Assembly (NCBI RefSeq): GCF_003019675.1
Contig: NZ_CP028105.1
Span: 2,248,282 to 2,312,281 of the forward strand
Source: Fusobacterium ulcerans
GTDB taxonomy: Bacteria; Fusobacteriota; Fusobacteriia; Fusobacteriales; Fusobacteriaceae
Length of the DNA stretch: 64,000 bases
Reading direction: 5' to 3'
Shown: positions 19,941 through 26,305 of the stretch, piece by piece
Position numbering within the stretch: the stretch's first letter is position 1
Layout of the letters: the number at the start of each line of letters is the position of its first letter
Position numbers and translations under genes: made by a program
Notes under the pieces: model-generated
Database searches by the model: none
What the model saw: only the letters and a program-made list of their open reading frames with translations
Told to the model about the DNA's origin: nothing

Positions 19941-20528
19941 TTATTTTTCTTCTTCTATATGTAGTTTTTCTATACGGTTGTCAGGAATTATCCAGAGAAC
20001 AGCAGTGAGAGCATAGAAAAATAAAGAAATTACAGGAAGGAAAAATGCTGAAATTATTCCTGTAAGATATAAAATAGGAGAAATTTTCCCTTTTATATCA
20101 TTTCCAATAGCTTTTTTTAATTTTGAATTTTTACCTTGTGACTTTATAAGCAGATGTATTAAAATATAGTATGCTATGGAGCAGGCTAAAAGAACGCCCC
20201 CATACATCATAGCAGAGATTTCTGAGAAGTTTGTTTCACCCATCCAGCTTGTTGTAAATGGAATAAGGGAAAGCCAAAAGAGCAGGTGAGTATTTGCCCA
20301 GAGGATTTTTCCGTTTATCTTATTGACAACAGAGAAAGTGTGATGATGATTGTTCCAGTATATTCCCACATAGAGAAAGCTTAAAATATAACTAAAAAAT
20401 TTTGGAAATAAACTGGAGAGTTCAGAAATATCTGCTCTATGAGGTGCTTTTAATTCTAATACCATTATTGTTATAATGATGGCTATTACTCCATCACTAA
20501 ATGCTTCTATTCTATTTTTTCCAAACAT
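19941..20528 (-). CDS. TMEM175-family (DUF1211) membrane protein
   Basis: A 195-residue protein with about six helices. The N-terminal RIEAFSDGVIAIIITIMVLEL contains the diagnostic R-x3-FSD motif of bacterial TMEM175 potassium channels, followed by the SYILSFLYVGIYWNNHHH segment typical of the family. The protein probably forms a tetrameric K+-permeable channel; this is known for some relatives, not shown here. Start at 20528 is chosen because AAGGAG lies upstream; the longer reading from 20561 adds 11 residues without a ribosome site. Confidence 0.88.
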   Translation of the reverse strand: MFGKNRIEAFSDGVIAIIITIMVLELKAPHRADISELSSLFPKFFSYILSFLYVGIYWNNHHHTFSVVNKINGKILWANTHLLFWLSLIPFTTSWMGETNFSEISAMMYGGVLLACSIAYYILIHLLIKSQGKNSKLKKAIGNDIKGKISPILYLTGIISAFFLPVISLFFYALTAVLWIIPDNRIEKLHIEEEK

Positions 20529-20567
20529 AAGATTTTCTCCTTTTAAATATCTTTTAATCATTATATG

Positions 20568-21387: not shown

Positions 21388-22926
21388 CTACTCAGTTACA
21401 TAGACATTTGTAAGATCTAAATAACCATTATTTTTCATAATAAGATTATGAATATTTTTTCTCATTCCAAGATTTAGTTTTGGATAAAGAATAGTGTAGT
21501 GAGGAAGCTCTTCTTGTAATATCTCCTGAGCCTTTCCATAAAGTTCTTTTCTAACTTTAGGATCCATTGTTATTCTAGCTTTATCAAGAGTATCATCTAA
21601 ATCTTTATTTACAAAAGCAGTTACATTCATAGAACCTTTTATTTGAGATGAATGGAAAAGAGGATACATAGTTTTATCACAATCTCCATTGGCAGTGTTC
21701 CATGACATATAGAAAATAGGTTTTACTTCATTTTCATTTTCAATCATTTTGATATAAGTAGCCCATTGGAAAACTTTAATCTCAGTATTGATTCCTATTT
21801 CTCTCAACTGCTCCTGAATAATAACACAAGCATCAATTCTTGCAGAATCATCACTTACCCATAAGTCAATATTGAAACCATTAGGATACCCAGCTTCTGT
21901 TAAAAGTTCTTTTGCTTTGGCAATATTCAAATCATATTTCTTAGCATCAGGATTGAAATCTGTCATAGCAGGAGGAACTACAGAAGTTCCAGGAGTAGCA
22001 GAATCTCCATATATAGCTTGAGTGATAGCTTTATTATCTATTGCATAAGCTATTGCCTGTCTCACTCTCTTATCTTTCAATAATTCATTTTTAGTATCAA
22101 ATCCAACAAACTGGCTAGTAGGAGCTTCAACTTCTATATAATCTAAAGAGTTGTTGTCTTTAATAGATTTCAGATCCATAACTCCCATATCTAATGATAT
22201 ATCAGCTTCACCAGTTTCCAGCATAATCATTCTGCTGTTGTTTTCAGTTATGAACTTAATAACTACTTCTTTAAGTTTTGAAATAGTCCCATAGTAATCA
22301 TCAAATCTTTCCATAGTAAGTCTGTTTCCTATATCCCATGATTTAAATTTGAATTGTCCAGTTCCTACAGGGTTAGTAAGAAATACATCTTCTGAAGCTT
22401 CAACGAGTTTTTTATTAATTATTGAAGAATTTGTAATACTAAGCTGATTTAAAAGACTTCCAAAAGGAGTATCTGTAGTTATCTTGATAGTGTTTTCATC
22501 AATTACAGTTACCTCTTTTATAGGAGTAAAATTATAAGCACATTGAGGAAGACTTCTTGCTCTATCCAAAGAAAACTTTACATCTTCAGCAGTCATAATA
22601 TCTCCATTATGGAATTTAACATTTTTCTTTAAGTGAAATACTGTATTTAAAGGATCAACAGATTCCCAGCTTTCAGCTAATCCTGGAAGCAGATTAAGGT
22701 CTTTATCCATAGTTATTAAAGTATCAAACATAAGCTGAATTATTTTATTAGAAACTGAATCAGTACTTTTTTGTGGATCAAGAGTTTTGATTTCAGCTTT
22801 CTGAGCAATAACTAAAGTATCTTTCAATTTAGTCTCTGATGAAGTTTCAGATTTTATAGCTTTTGTTCCTCCAAGTAATAAAGCAAATGTAAGTAAAAAA
22901 ATCACAGCCAATAGTTTCTTTTTCAT
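21388..22926 (-). CDS. Family 5 extracellular solute-binding protein (peptide-type)
   Basis: A 512-residue periplasmic binding protein of the DppA/OppA family (SBP_bac_5). A signal peptide (about residues 1-24) has no lipobox cysteine, so cleavage by signal peptidase I is likely. The mature part has the typical pattern: LKDTLVIAQKAEIKTLDPQ, SVSNKIIQLMFDTLIT, the KFHNGDIMTAEDVKFSLDR signature, NPVGTGQFKFKSWD, and KRVRQAIAYAID. No permease or ATPase gene is nearby, so it is an orphan that must share a transporter encoded elsewhere. Start at 22926 follows GAGGGGGA. Its leader encodes three consecutive Trp codons and an attenuator, which suggests control by tryptophan supply. Confidence 0.92.
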   Translation of the reverse strand: MKKKLLAVIFLLTFALLLGGTKAIKSETSSETKLKDTLVIAQKAEIKTLDPQKSTDSVSNKIIQLMFDTLITMDKDLNLLPGLAESWESVDPLNTVFHLKKNVKFHNGDIMTAEDVKFSLDRARSLPQCAYNFTPIKEVTVIDENTIKITTDTPFGSLLNQLSITNSSIINKKLVEASEDVFLTNPVGTGQFKFKSWDIGNRLTMERFDDYYGTISKLKEVVIKFITENNSRMIMLETGEADISLDMGVMDLKSIKDNNSLDYIEVEAPTSQFVGFDTKNELLKDKRVRQAIAYAIDNKAITQAIYGDSATPGTSVVPPAMTDFNPDAKKYDLNIAKAKELLTEAGYPNGFNIDLWVSDDSARIDACVIIQEQLREIGINTEIKVFQWATYIKMIENENEVKPIFYMSWNTANGDCDKTMYPLFHSSQIKGSMNVTAFVNKDLDDTLDKARITMDPKVRKELYGKAQEILQEELPHYTILYPKLNLGMRKNIHNLIMKNNGYLDLTNVYVTE

Positions 22927-22967
22927 TTTTGTTTCCCCCTCGGTATCATTTAAAAGTTCTTTAAGAA

Positions 22968-22997
22968 TAAAAAAAAGCAATCTGGTTAGATTGCTTT
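22968..22997 (-). terminator. Attenuator terminator ahead of the solute-binding protein gene
   Basis: On the minus strand AAAGCAATCT pairs perfectly with AGATTGCTTT over the loop AACC, followed by a run of T. It lies after the leader peptide stop and about 42 bases before the gene's start, so it would stop transcription before the gene. Confidence 0.85.
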
Positions 22998-23214
22998 AAA
23001 AACAAGTGATATTTCTCATATATATCATGTGTGCTCCAAAAAACATGATGTATATAAATTTAGATTTATATATTCAAATATTTTAAAGGAGTTTACACAG
23101 AAGTATAAAAGTTATCAAAAGACGCAAGCTTATATCTAACATTAAAAATTTCTGTATGCAGTTTTTCTGTGCAGCTCCACCACCAATATTGGAATACAGT
23201 GTTTAAGTTAGATA
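22985..23214 (-). promoter_or_regulatory. Trp-codon leader attenuator: alternative pairing segments
   Basis: Minus-strand segment 1 is TATCTAAC (23214-23207). Segment 2 is GTTAGATATAAGCTT (23140-23126). Segment 3 is AAGCAATCTAAC (22996-22985), which covers the left arm and loop of the terminator. Segment 2 can pair with segment 1 (8 bp, GTTAGATA) or with segment 3 (7 bp plus GCTT:AAGC), so the two folds exclude each other. An additional stem joins GTTATCA near the ribosome site to TGATAAC further down, and a strong hairpin (23017-23056) precedes the terminator. Confidence 0.7.
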
Positions 23215-23221
23215 ATGTCAT
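23093..23221 (-). CDS. Trp-rich leader peptide (42 aa)
   Basis: A short frame with a strong ribosome site (AGGAGG, eight bases before ATG) encodes 42 residues. Codons 13-15 are three tryptophan codons in a row (QYWWWSC, codons at 23185-23177). Tryptophan is rare in this genome, so three in a row in a short leader is a strong sign of an attenuation sensor. It lies behind a consensus promoter and ahead of a terminator and the solute-binding protein gene. A second in-frame ATG seven codons upstream (23242) has no ribosome site. It resembles trp-type leaders in principle, not in sequence. Confidence 0.8.
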   Translation of the reverse strand: MTLSNLNTVFQYWWWSCTEKLHTEIFNVRYKLASFDNFYTSV

Positions 23222-23261
23222 ATTGATAACCTCCTTTTTCATAGTCTTATTTCTTGTAATG

Positions 23262-23290
23262 AGTATATGCTATATTTTTTTAAAAGTCAA
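23262..23290 (-). promoter_or_regulatory. Promoter of the Trp leader / solute-binding protein transcript
   Basis: On the minus strand TTGACT (23290-23285), 17-bp spacer, TATACT (23267-23262). It starts just after the pdxT stop and fires into the Trp leader. Confidence 0.85.
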
Positions 23291-23297
23291 CTATTTT

Positions 23298-23867
23298 TTA
23301 TTTTTTTTTTACAATATCCAGAAAATATTCATGAACAGAAGTATCATCTGTAAGCTCTGGGTGGAAAGATACAGCCAGCATATTTTTTTCTCTCACAGCA
23401 GTTATATTTCCATTTACAACTGATAATATCTCTGCTCCTTCTTTTATATTTTCTACATAGGGAGCTCTGATAAATACCATTTTCACTTTTTTATCTATTC
23501 CTTTAAAATCTCCTAATGTTTCAAAACTTCCAAGCTGTCTTCCATAAGCATTTCTTTTAACTTCTATTCCCATAACTCCTAAATGTACAACATCACTGTT
23601 TGAAAGTTTTTCAGCGAGAAGTATCATACCAGAACAAGTACCAAATACAGGAAAGCCATTTTTTATTTTTTCTTTGAGAGGTTCAAGAATATCAAAGTCT
23701 CTTAAAAGTTTTCCCATAGCTGTACTTTCTCCACCAGGAAGAATTATCCCATCAATATCTTTTAGCTGTTCTTTTGTTTTTACTAGACAGTTATCTATAT
23801 TTAGGGAATCAAGGATATTTTTATGCTCTTGGAAAGCTCCTTGGAGAGCTAAAATTCCTATTTTCAT
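23298..23867 (-). CDS. pdxT: Pyridoxal 5'-phosphate synthase glutaminase subunit PdxT
   Basis: PdxT releases ammonia from glutamine and passes it to PdxS for vitamin B6 synthesis. The product of 189 residues begins with the canonical MKIGILALQGAFQEH; this ATG at 23867 follows GAGG, while a TTG at 23876 is a weaker alternative. Catalytic Cys is in FGTCSGMILLA, LPGGESTAMGKLL is present, and the His-Glu pair is in VSFHPELTDD near the end. It lies two bases after the pdxS stop. Confidence 0.97.
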   Translation of the reverse strand: MKIGILALQGAFQEHKNILDSLNIDNCLVKTKEQLKDIDGIILPGGESTAMGKLLRDFDILEPLKEKIKNGFPVFGTCSGMILLAEKLSNSDVVHLGVMGIEVKRNAYGRQLGSFETLGDFKGIDKKVKMVFIRAPYVENIKEGAEILSVVNGNITAVREKNMLAVSFHPELTDDTSVHEYFLDIVKKK

Positions 23868-23869
23868 AA

Positions 23870-24745
23870 TTACCAACCTCTTTTAGCCATTTTCTCATCT
23901 TCAGCAAGAGAATAAACATTGATACCTACCATTGCTTCTCCTAGATCTTCTGATATTTCAGCAAGAATTTTCGGATCATTGTAATTTGTTACAGCTTTTA
24001 CAATAGCAGCAGCCCTCTTTGCCGGGTCGCCAGATTTGAATATTCCAGAACCAACAAAGACACCATCACAACCAAGCTGCATCATAAGAGCTGCATCAGC
24101 AGGTGTAGCCACCCCACCAGCAGCAAAGTTTACCACAGGAAGTTTTCCATTGTTATGAACATATTTTACTAAATCATATGGAGCTCCTAATTCCTTTGCA
24201 ATATGATAAAGTTCAGATTCAGGAGAAGATACTACTTTTCTGATATCTTCATTTAGTGTTCTCATATGTTTTACAGCTTCAATGACATCTCCAGTTCCAG
24301 GCTCCCCCTTAGTTCTTATCATACTTGCTCCTTCAGATATTCTTCTTAGAGCTTCTCCTAGATTTCTTGATCCACATACAAATGGAACTTTAAATAATGT
24401 TTTATCCACATGGAATCTGTCATCAGCAGGAGTAAGAACTTCACTTTCGTCAATATAATCTATTTCAAGAGCTTCAAGTATTTGAGCTTCTACAAAGTGA
24501 CCAATTCTCACTTTAGCCATTACAGGAATAGAAACAGCAGCCTGTATCTCTTTTATCATTTTCGGATCAGACATTCTTGCTACTCCGCCATTTTTTCTTA
24601 TATCAGCAGGAACTCTTTCCAATGCCATAACAGCACAGGCACCAGCTTCTTCAGCTATTTTAGCTTCAGCAGCTGTAGTTACATCCATTATTACTCCACC
24701 TTTTAACATTTGAGCTAAGTTTTTATTTAAATCATATCTTGACAT
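23870..24745 (-). CDS. pdxS: Pyridoxal 5'-phosphate synthase lyase subunit PdxS
   Basis: PdxS condenses ribose 5-phosphate, glyceraldehyde 3-phosphate and ammonia to PLP; it forms a dodecamer decorated with PdxT. The 291-residue product is full length, with [30 protein letters not shown], the catalytic lysines in MAKVRIGH and [26 protein letters not shown] and [15 protein letters not shown]. It is first in the pdxST operon and divergent from pdxR, its probable regulator. Confidence 0.98.
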
Positions 24746-24799
24746 ATTCTTCCCTCCATATATTTATTGATTATTTTTTTGATTAATATTATAATAAGA

Positions 24800-24899
24800 G
24801 TATCGATACAATCTATTAAAAAATTAATTTTCTAATGATAGTATCACATAAAATATAAAATTATTCAATTCTAAAAACTATTAAGTGTACCGTTACAAT
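24800..24899. promoter_or_regulatory. Candidate PdxR sites between pdxS and pdxR
   Basis: A 13-bp direct repeat, GTAYCGWTACAAT, occurs at 24800-24812 and 24887-24899, with a half-similar GTATCACAT at 24841-24849 between them. The left copy overlaps the pdxS promoter: its -10 TATAAT lies at 24793-24788 and the -35 is weak. MocR-type regulators of pdxST are known to bind two or three repeats in such divergent regions. Confidence 0.5.
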
Positions 24900-24916
24900 T
24901 TTTTCTTGGAGGAATA

Positions 24917-26305
24917 ATGAAAATAGAACTGCCTGTGGAGAATGGGGAAAAAATATATCTTCAGCTTTATTATAAATTAAAAGAAATGATAGAAAATGGA
25001 GAGATAAAAGGAAAAATATTTTCTATAAGAGAGCTTGCTAAAAATTTAGGAGTGAGTATCTCAACAGTGGTAAAGGCCTATGAACAGCTGGAAAAAAATG
25101 GATATATATATCTTCGTGGAGGGAGCGGAGCTTATGTAAAATACAACAGAGAAAAAAAGTTTTATCTGGAAGATCATATGGAAAATGAAATATTCAGATA
25201 TGGTTATTTTTCTTCTGAGTACAGAATAGATTTTTCTACTGCGTCCCCTAATGCTGATTTTTTTCCTGTGGAAGAACTGAAAAAAGCTATCAATTATATT
25301 TTAGACAGAGATGGAGGGAAAGCTCTCCTTTATGAAAATCCACAAGGTTATTTGGAGCTTCGTAAGACTATAAAAAAAGAACTGAAAGCTGATGGGATAG
25401 ATGTAGAGATAAAAGATATTCAAATAATGTCAGGTGCTCAGCAGGGGATAGATATATTGAGTAAAATATTGATTTATCCGGGAGATATAGTAGTCACAGA
25501 AGACCCAGCATATAAAGGGGCAGTTATAAGTTTTAAAAATAATGGGGCAAAAGTAGAAAGAGTAGCAATGAAAAAAGATGGACTTGACTTAAAGGAGCTG
25601 GAAGGTATTTTAAAGAGAGATAAAATAAAATTTATATATACAGCAGCTACTTTTCATAATCCTACAGGAATATCAATTTCAGAAAAAAAGAGAGTGGAGC
25701 TTTTAGATCTGGCTGAAAAATATAATTTCTACATCATAGAAGATGATTGCAGCTCTGATATATATTTTGATGAAAAAAAAATAAGAAGTATAAAAAGCTA
25801 TGATAAAAATGATAGGGTCATATATATAAAAAGCTATTCTAAAGTGTTCATGCCTGGCTTTAGGCTTGGATTTATGGTAGCTCCAGAAAAAATAGCAAAC
25901 TCTGTATTAGCAGGGAAATATTCCAGTGACATTTCTAACTCAGGATTGAATCAGAGAGTTTTTCAATATTTTCTTGAAAATGGTATATGGAATGAACATA
26001 TAGAAAAATCCAGAAAAGAGTTTCATAAAAAACAAAAATATATGTATCACAGACTTAAAAAAATAGAGAACATAAAAATCAACAAACCAAAAGGTGGCAT
26101 GTGCTTCTGGATAGAGCTTCCAAAAGAAATAACAGGGGAAGCTGTGTATATGAAACTTGCTAAAAGAGGGGTAGGAATACTTCCAGGGGTAGTTTTTTCA
26201 GAAAAATCATATAACTATATAAGATTAAGTTTTGCTCAATGTAATGAAAAAGAGATAGATGAGGGAATAGAAATATTGGAAAAAGTAATTGATGAATTGA
26301 GATAA
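24917..26305 (+). CDS. pdxR: MocR/PdxR-type transcriptional regulator
   Basis: A 462-residue protein with an N-terminal GntR winged helix (about residues 10-75; SIRELAKNLGVSISTVVKAYEQLEKNG split over two lines) joined to a class I aminotransferase-like domain (about 105-460). The latter keeps the PLP lysine in YIKSYSKVFMPGFRLGF and the GAQQGID, HNPTG and EDDCSSDIYF motifs. It senses PLP and usually activates pdxST. Its position, divergent from pdxST, makes this function likely. ATG follows TTGGAGGA. Confidence 0.92.
   Translation: MKIELPVENGEKIYLQLYYKLKEMIENGEIKGKIFSIRELAKNLGVSISTVVKAYEQLEKNGYIYLRGGSGAYVKYNREKKFYLEDHMENEIFRYGYFSSEYRIDFSTASPNADFFPVEELKKAINYILDRDGGKALLYENPQGYLELRKTIKKELKADGIDVEIKDIQIMSGAQQGIDILSKILIYPGDIVVTEDPAYKGAVISFKNNGAKVERVAMKKDGLDLKELEGILKRDKIKFIYTAATFHNPTGISISEKKRVELLDLAEKYNFYIIEDDCSSDIYFDEKKIRSIKSYDKNDRVIYIKSYSKVFMPGFRLGFMVAPEKIANSVLAGKYSSDISNSGLNQRVFQYFLENGIWNEHIEKSRKEFHKKQKYMYHRLKKIENIKINKPKGGMCFWIELPKEITGEAVYMKLAKRGVGILPGVVFSEKSYNYIRLSFAQCNEKEIDEGIEILEKVIDELR

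Follow-up and report, generated by a model that had tools for sequence, protein, structure and literature searches.

The locus lies on the minus strand of a 64-kb stretch of Fusobacterium ulcerans DNA, which is called the window here. It contains a gene for a solute-binding protein of the SBP_bac_5 family and, directly upstream of it, a short open reading frame with consecutive tryptophan (Trp) codons that is followed by an intrinsic terminator. The elements of the locus are listed below in the order in which they are transcribed; G004 is a relative from the same genus and G073 one from another genus of the same family.

23262-23290, minus strand: sigma-70-type promoter, TTGACT-17-TATACT, with 10/12 matches; TTGACW and TATACT are kept in the aligned species
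23223-23234, minus strand: segment A, the Shine-Dalgarno sequence and the next bases, GGAGGUUAUCAA; can pair with segment D
23093-23221, minus strand: leader ORF of 42 codons, MTLSNLNTVFQYWWWSCTEKLHTEIFNVRYKLASFDNFYTSV
23207-23214, minus strand: segment B, UAUCUAAC; pairs with segment C in the termination-permitting fold and covaries with it in G073
23177-23185, minus strand: three Trp codons, Trp13-15; WW or WWW in 11/11 leaders
23165-23178, minus strand: segment E, GGAGCUGCACAGAA; overlaps the last Trp codon, partner is segment F
23126-23140, minus strand: segment C, GUUAGAUAUAAGCUU; partner is segment B or the left arm of the terminator, RNA kept in another frame in G004
23107-23118, minus strand: segment D, UUGAUAACUUUU; partner is segment A or, in the antiterminator, UAUCA at 23011-23007
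23088-23102, minus strand: segment F, UUCUGUGUA(AA)CUCC, including the stop codon; partner is segment E
22985-23092, minus strand: segment 3, the spacer and the left arm of the terminator; forms the antiterminator rod with the C-D-F region
22966-22997, minus strand: intrinsic terminator, a 10-bp stem (22997-22974) and a U run; stem arms and loop are kept in the genus
21388-22926, minus strand: controlled gene, SBP_bac_5 solute-binding protein of 512 aa, with no permease gene adjacent

The leader lies after pdxS-pdxT on the minus strand, and this pair is divergent from a gene for a MocR-type regulator (window 23298-26305) that passes the PdxR equivalog cut-off with 363 bits against 320. On the other side of the binding-protein gene, at 19941-20561, a homolog of TMEM175-type potassium channels (Pfam PF06736, 112 bits) adjoins a gene for an MTA/SAH nucleosidase.

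A preliminary description of this DNA had placed a promoter, a strong ribosome site, a 42-codon leader with three Trp codons and a perfect 10-bp terminator on the minus strand in front of an SBP_bac_5 gene without a neighboring permease gene, and all of these elements were found where it had located them. The Shine-Dalgarno sequence AAAGGAGG stands directly upstream of the leader ATG at 23221. Since a promoter scan alone gave five sites in comparison to 4.4 expected from shuffled sequences, which is not above chance, the promoter was assigned on the grounds of its conservation among the aligned species. The terminator is the sole terminator-like site found between 22800 and 23500 (shuffled sequences give 0.1) and ends about 48 nt upstream of the ATG of the binding-protein gene. 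When compared to 100 dinucleotide shuffles, the fold of the leader RNA was more stable than every one of them (z = -3.28). Across the six reading frames of the window there are four instances of WWW, a rate at which a given ORF of 42 codons would contain one by chance in roughly one case in a thousand. Among the short ORFs of the window with a strong Shine-Dalgarno sequence, none but the leader carries it.

The segment at 23140-23126 had also been described as having two mutually exclusive partners, one near the start of the leader and one in the left arm of the terminator, and the complementarity is indeed present. GUUAGAU (23140-23134) is complementary to segment B at 23214-23207, with 8 bp if the next A is counted, and its alternative partner is AUCUAAC at 22991-22985, in the arm and loop of the terminator, with 7 bp plus GCUU:AAGC. 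This pairing scheme was retained, but the antiterminator turned out to be longer than the segment described, and two further helices were added to it. The 7-bp pairing of segment C with the terminator was judged too weak to serve as an antiterminator on its own and was replaced by a longer rod, in which one strand consists of segments C and D with the last part of the ORF and the other of the spacer with the left terminator arm; segment 3 contributes GGAGCACACA at 23037-23028 and UAUCA at 23011-23007 to it. The two added helices are A:D, in which the ribosome-binding site pairs with UUGAUAAC (8 bp or more in each of the 11 leaders and 12 bp in that of the window), and E:F, whose strands lie at the last Trp codon and at the stop codon.

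A peptide search identified homologs of the leader in 10 of the 12 species of the genus, and a covariance model revealed an eleventh in G073 (E = 5.6e-4). The leader peptides are 34-42 aa long and end in SV, SM or IM; their conservation extends to some residues besides the Trp run, and the length after segment D differs in G073. The order pdxST-leader-SBP is common to four close species, while the upstream neighbor of the leader differs in most lineages. In G073, a YbaK-like protein with an aminoacyl-tRNA editing domain (Pfam tRNA_edit) is encoded directly upstream (L136:966-1457). The distances from the Shine-Dalgarno sequence to the ATG and from segment D to the stop codon are constant among the genus members. 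A DNA pattern of ribosome-binding site and Trp codons matched F. mortiferum An814 and, as single matches, unrelated taxa among the GTDB genomes. Weak peptide matches outside the genus were not leaders where they were inspected, and the A...D pattern gave no further leader across the phylum, the remaining matches resembling coding sequence or unrelated sites. Likewise, none of 30 loci with TrpX homologs besides that of G073 had a Trp-rich leader within 800 nt upstream of the match, loci at contig ends being partly scanned.

Conservation of the Trp run and of the pairing segments in relatives had been proposed as a check of the preliminary description, and both are borne out: the tandem Trp codons are present in every leader, and the pairings are kept via compensatory changes. 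In G004, GUUAGAU is preceded by the loss of one base and followed by the gain of another, so that the frame is restored for the end of the peptide; GUUAGAU is thus kept in a different frame, which indicates conservation at the RNA level. The corresponding sequences of G073 are AUCUAAUAU near the start, AUAUUAGAU in segment C and GUCUAAUAU in the terminator arm, where the window has AUCUAAC, GUUAGAU and AUCUAAC, respectively. All three have changed together, as competing pairings would demand. Four species possess CAAUAUU instead of AUCUAAC near the start, and this CAAUAUU shares bases with the first Trp codon. The E:F helix is paired throughout the genus, with U-A and C-G replacing each other in a compensatory manner. 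Its outer part covaries as GGAG:CUCC, GGAG:CUUC, GGAG:CUCU and GGAA:UUCU, reaching bases 3' of the stop codon, which encode no residue of the leader.

When each segment was tested by permutation against its partner from its own and from other species, the seven representatives gave p = 0.005 for E:F, p = 0.010 for the antiterminator rod, p = 0.028 for B:C, p = 0.066 for C:T5 and p = 0.16 for A:D, values that serve as guides and not as strict probabilities since the sequences are related; the last two helices vary too little for covariation to be tested clearly. Compared to versions with a shuffled spacer, the rod of the window is more stable with z = -2.71 (1/200), and those of the genus range from z = -0.8 to -3.3, the gain being weak in G010 and G011. 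The rod of G073 showed no gain in stability over shuffled spacers.

The energy balance of the leader was calculated as the cost of forming the antiterminator in the nascent RNA, before the right arm of the terminator exists. In the window, this cost is 8.7 kcal/mol in free RNA and 0.4 kcal/mol with the Trp codons and the start region covered. The same calculation for the trpL leader of E. coli, whose sequence was checked against E. coli genomes, gave 7.4 kcal/mol for the free and 0.1-0.6 kcal/mol for the stalled state. With a ribosome at the stop codon the value for the window is 5.5 kcal/mol, but such values carry little weight, as the static model mispredicts E. coli trpL in this state (-4.6). 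Since the finished RNA favors the terminator in the window and in trpL alike, the choice between the two folds must be kinetic, as it is in trpL. In the model, a single stalled ribosome on the window RNA still leaves termination favored (5.6 kcal/mol). The leaders differ in this respect depending on the position of the Trp codons. In G004, G008 and G009, where these are near the start, one stalled ribosome reduces the predicted cost to about 0.1-0.2 kcal/mol, and in G010 and G011 to 1.7 kcal/mol. In the window group, G005 and G073, where the Trp codons are at positions 13-15 or similar, one ribosome leaves segments A and B free and the cost is still about 3-10 kcal/mol. If a second ribosome occupies the start codon, the cost falls to 0.1-0.4 kcal/mol for G005 and the window group and to 1.6-1.9 kcal/mol for G073, a step that is partly set by the geometry assumed in the calculation. 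The 36 nt between the start codon and Trp13 just accommodate this second ribosome, and going by the model it is probably required in the window group.

A translatable leader ORF with a run of Trp codons, an intrinsic terminator and an antiterminator that excludes it are all present, as in attenuators of the trp type. The RNA may be divided into segment 1 (ribosome-binding site, B, Trp codons and E), segment 2 (C, D and F), segment 3 (spacer and left terminator arm) and segment 4 (right arm), which would form mutually exclusive folds: 1:2 would consist of A:D and B:C as long as the leader is untranslated and of B:C and E:F after translation, 2:3 would be the antiterminator rod and 3:4 the terminator. 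From this arrangement we infer the direction of the response and the participation of a second ribosome. If the leader is untranslated, A:D and B:C would lock segment 2 and the terminator would form. If charged Trp-tRNA is plentiful, the ribosome would reach the stop codon, B:C and later E:F would form, and transcription would end near 22970. If Trp-tRNA is scarce, the ribosome would wait at Trp13-15 and a second ribosome at the start codon probably joins it in this species, so that A, B and E would be covered; segment 2 could then pair with segment 3, the terminator would come too late and the binding-protein gene would be transcribed.

The genes behind the leader encode SBP_bac_5 proteins in four species, an NSS symporter in six and a TrpX-like binding protein in G073. 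The binding protein of the window belongs to Pfam PF00496 (305 bits against a curated cut-off of 32.4) and reaches no equivalog cut-off of NCBIfam. Its nearest solved structures are an ABC substrate-binding protein (5u4o), GsiB/YliB and DppA, from which we infer that the ligand may equally well be free Trp or a Trp-containing peptide. The target in G073 matches Pfam ABC_sub_bind, and its best NCBIfam model is TrpX, with 225 bits below the cut-off of 390. The NSS and TrpX-like targets of the relatives independently point to Trp uptake. In G001, G002 and G007, where the sole leader found is that before the SBP gene, an NSS orthologue (79% identical) occurs elsewhere in the genome near a gene of the tryptophanase family. 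This supports Trp as the substrate of the symporter and fits a division between catabolic uptake and uptake for supply. In G002, for instance, the tryptophanase-family gene, an intervening ORF of 229 aa and the NSS orthologue follow each other without a Trp leader (L101:270-4552). The species of the window lacks this orthologue. What looks like a duplicated catabolic unit is present in G005 (contig C41:13170-19798), where two tryptophanase-like genes, whose matches are split into pieces, alternate with two NSS paralogs.

In the home genus, none of the genomes has a trpB match above the cut-off, the best reaching 30 bits with 392 required, and none of the ten leader-bearing members has trpA; control genomes were positive for both. 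The absence of the two genes means that Trp must be imported, and the leader-bearing members of the home genus are apparently unable to make it. G073, however, possesses trpA and a trp operon, so the link between leader and auxotrophy is not universal. Its operon with trpE- to trpA-like genes follows directly after a strong terminator hairpin, AATCGTCCCAGTTTTTGGGACGATTTTTTTT (contig C15, L192:1-180); the contig starts about 190 bases before trpE, so that any leader there is cut off.

The closest known counterpart is the trpL leader of E. coli, which shares the short ORF with tandem Trp codons, the exclusive 1:2, 2:3 and 3:4 folds, the intrinsic terminator and a very similar energy balance. In contrast to trpL, which controls biosynthesis with 14 codons, the Fusobacterium leader would control uptake, has 34-42 codons of unrelated sequence, includes the ribosome-binding site in the 1:2 fold, has two alternative 1:2 helices and carries its Trp codons far from the stop codon. 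Trp T-boxes, which precede trpX (PMC9382623) and NSS genes (PMC2494555) in Firmicutes, also sense the charging of Trp-tRNA and share these two target types, but they bind the tRNA directly and need no leader translation. No T-box is listed for Fusobacteria in PMC2494555. Rfam, including Trp_leader and T-box, gave no match at the gathering score in the window or four relatives, and a permissive search of the leader region returned families at chance level and no T-box. The uORFC-8-2 motif before cysS in Rhodobacterales, a proposed ribosome-mediated attenuator found by comparison (PMC8632094), is likewise a leader ORF that is confined to one lineage and has codons of a single amino acid in tandem, yet it concerns cysteine, another phylum and a tRNA-ligase target. 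A literature search, with most subscription papers outside its scope, found no paper on a Trp attenuator in Fusobacterium.

A Trp-related leader peptide, TnaC, also stands before the Trp permease and a catabolic gene in E. coli, where free Trp induces expression via an arrest peptide and Rho. It is very unlikely that the Fusobacterium leader works in the same manner, with free Trp stalling the ribosome near the leader end and inducing a gene that serves Trp breakdown and not supply. The resemblance consists in an IDN or FDN near the C-terminus, as TnaC carries an IDN motif, and in the leaderless NSS orthologues of G002 that adjoin tryptophanase-like genes. However, the (I/F)DN codons coincide with segment D, whose pairing with the ribosome-binding site explains them at the RNA level. 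The TnaC-type arrest motif with its terminal Pro-stop is absent from the leader C-termini, the length after segment D differs in G073, five leader-bearing species have no tryptophanase-like gene, and an intrinsic terminator with an antiterminator is present.

It is still less probable, and in our view highly unlikely, that the leader codes for a small protein with a function of its own or for a trans-acting peptide, as peTrpL of Sinorhizobium is (PMC7298713), the terminator merely ending the leader transcript. With 34-42 aa the peptide is long compared to the 14 aa of E. coli TrpL and it has conserved residues besides Trp; yet the conserved stretches coincide with the pairing segments, a frameshift over part of the ORF is tolerated in G004, and the leader is always upstream of an uptake gene despite differing upstream genes. 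Attenuation by a stalled ribosome might also be real with the read-through set not specifically by Trp-tRNA but by leader initiation or general translation stress, for instance by antibiotics, to which leader peptides are known to respond elsewhere (PMC4191407). The large effect of a ribosome at the start codon in the model would agree with this. We nevertheless consider it improbable, since the tandem Trp codons are kept in all leaders while peptide length and flanking residues vary, and since the targets are uptake genes with links to Trp in two of three cases.

We therefore regard it as highly probable that the locus controls the uptake of Trp or Trp-containing peptides by transcription attenuation that is mediated by the ribosome, as in the trp operon of E. 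coli. This assignment is based on the anatomy of the leader, its conservation and covariation, the trpL-like energy balance, the three unrelated uptake genes and the absence of trpA and trpB. Ribosome-mediated attenuation had already been proposed in the preliminary description, and the conservation, the covariation and the NSS and TrpX-like targets in relatives lend support to it. More tentatively, it is possible that a single lineage-specific Trp attenuator cassette is attached to three unrelated classes of uptake genes and needs two ribosomes in the group with larger genomes, reading both the charging of Trp-tRNA and leader initiation. The kind of mechanism is already known; what appears to be undescribed is this RNA, its lineage and its position before three unrelated uptake genes.

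The occurrence of one leader on three unrelated uptake genes is useful for the annotation of transporters, as T-boxes are in Firmicutes. For the SBP, otherwise annotated only as a solute-binding protein, it predicts the binding of Trp or of Trp-containing peptides. The switch would report Trp limitation as it is experienced by bacteria that are apparently unable to make this amino acid.
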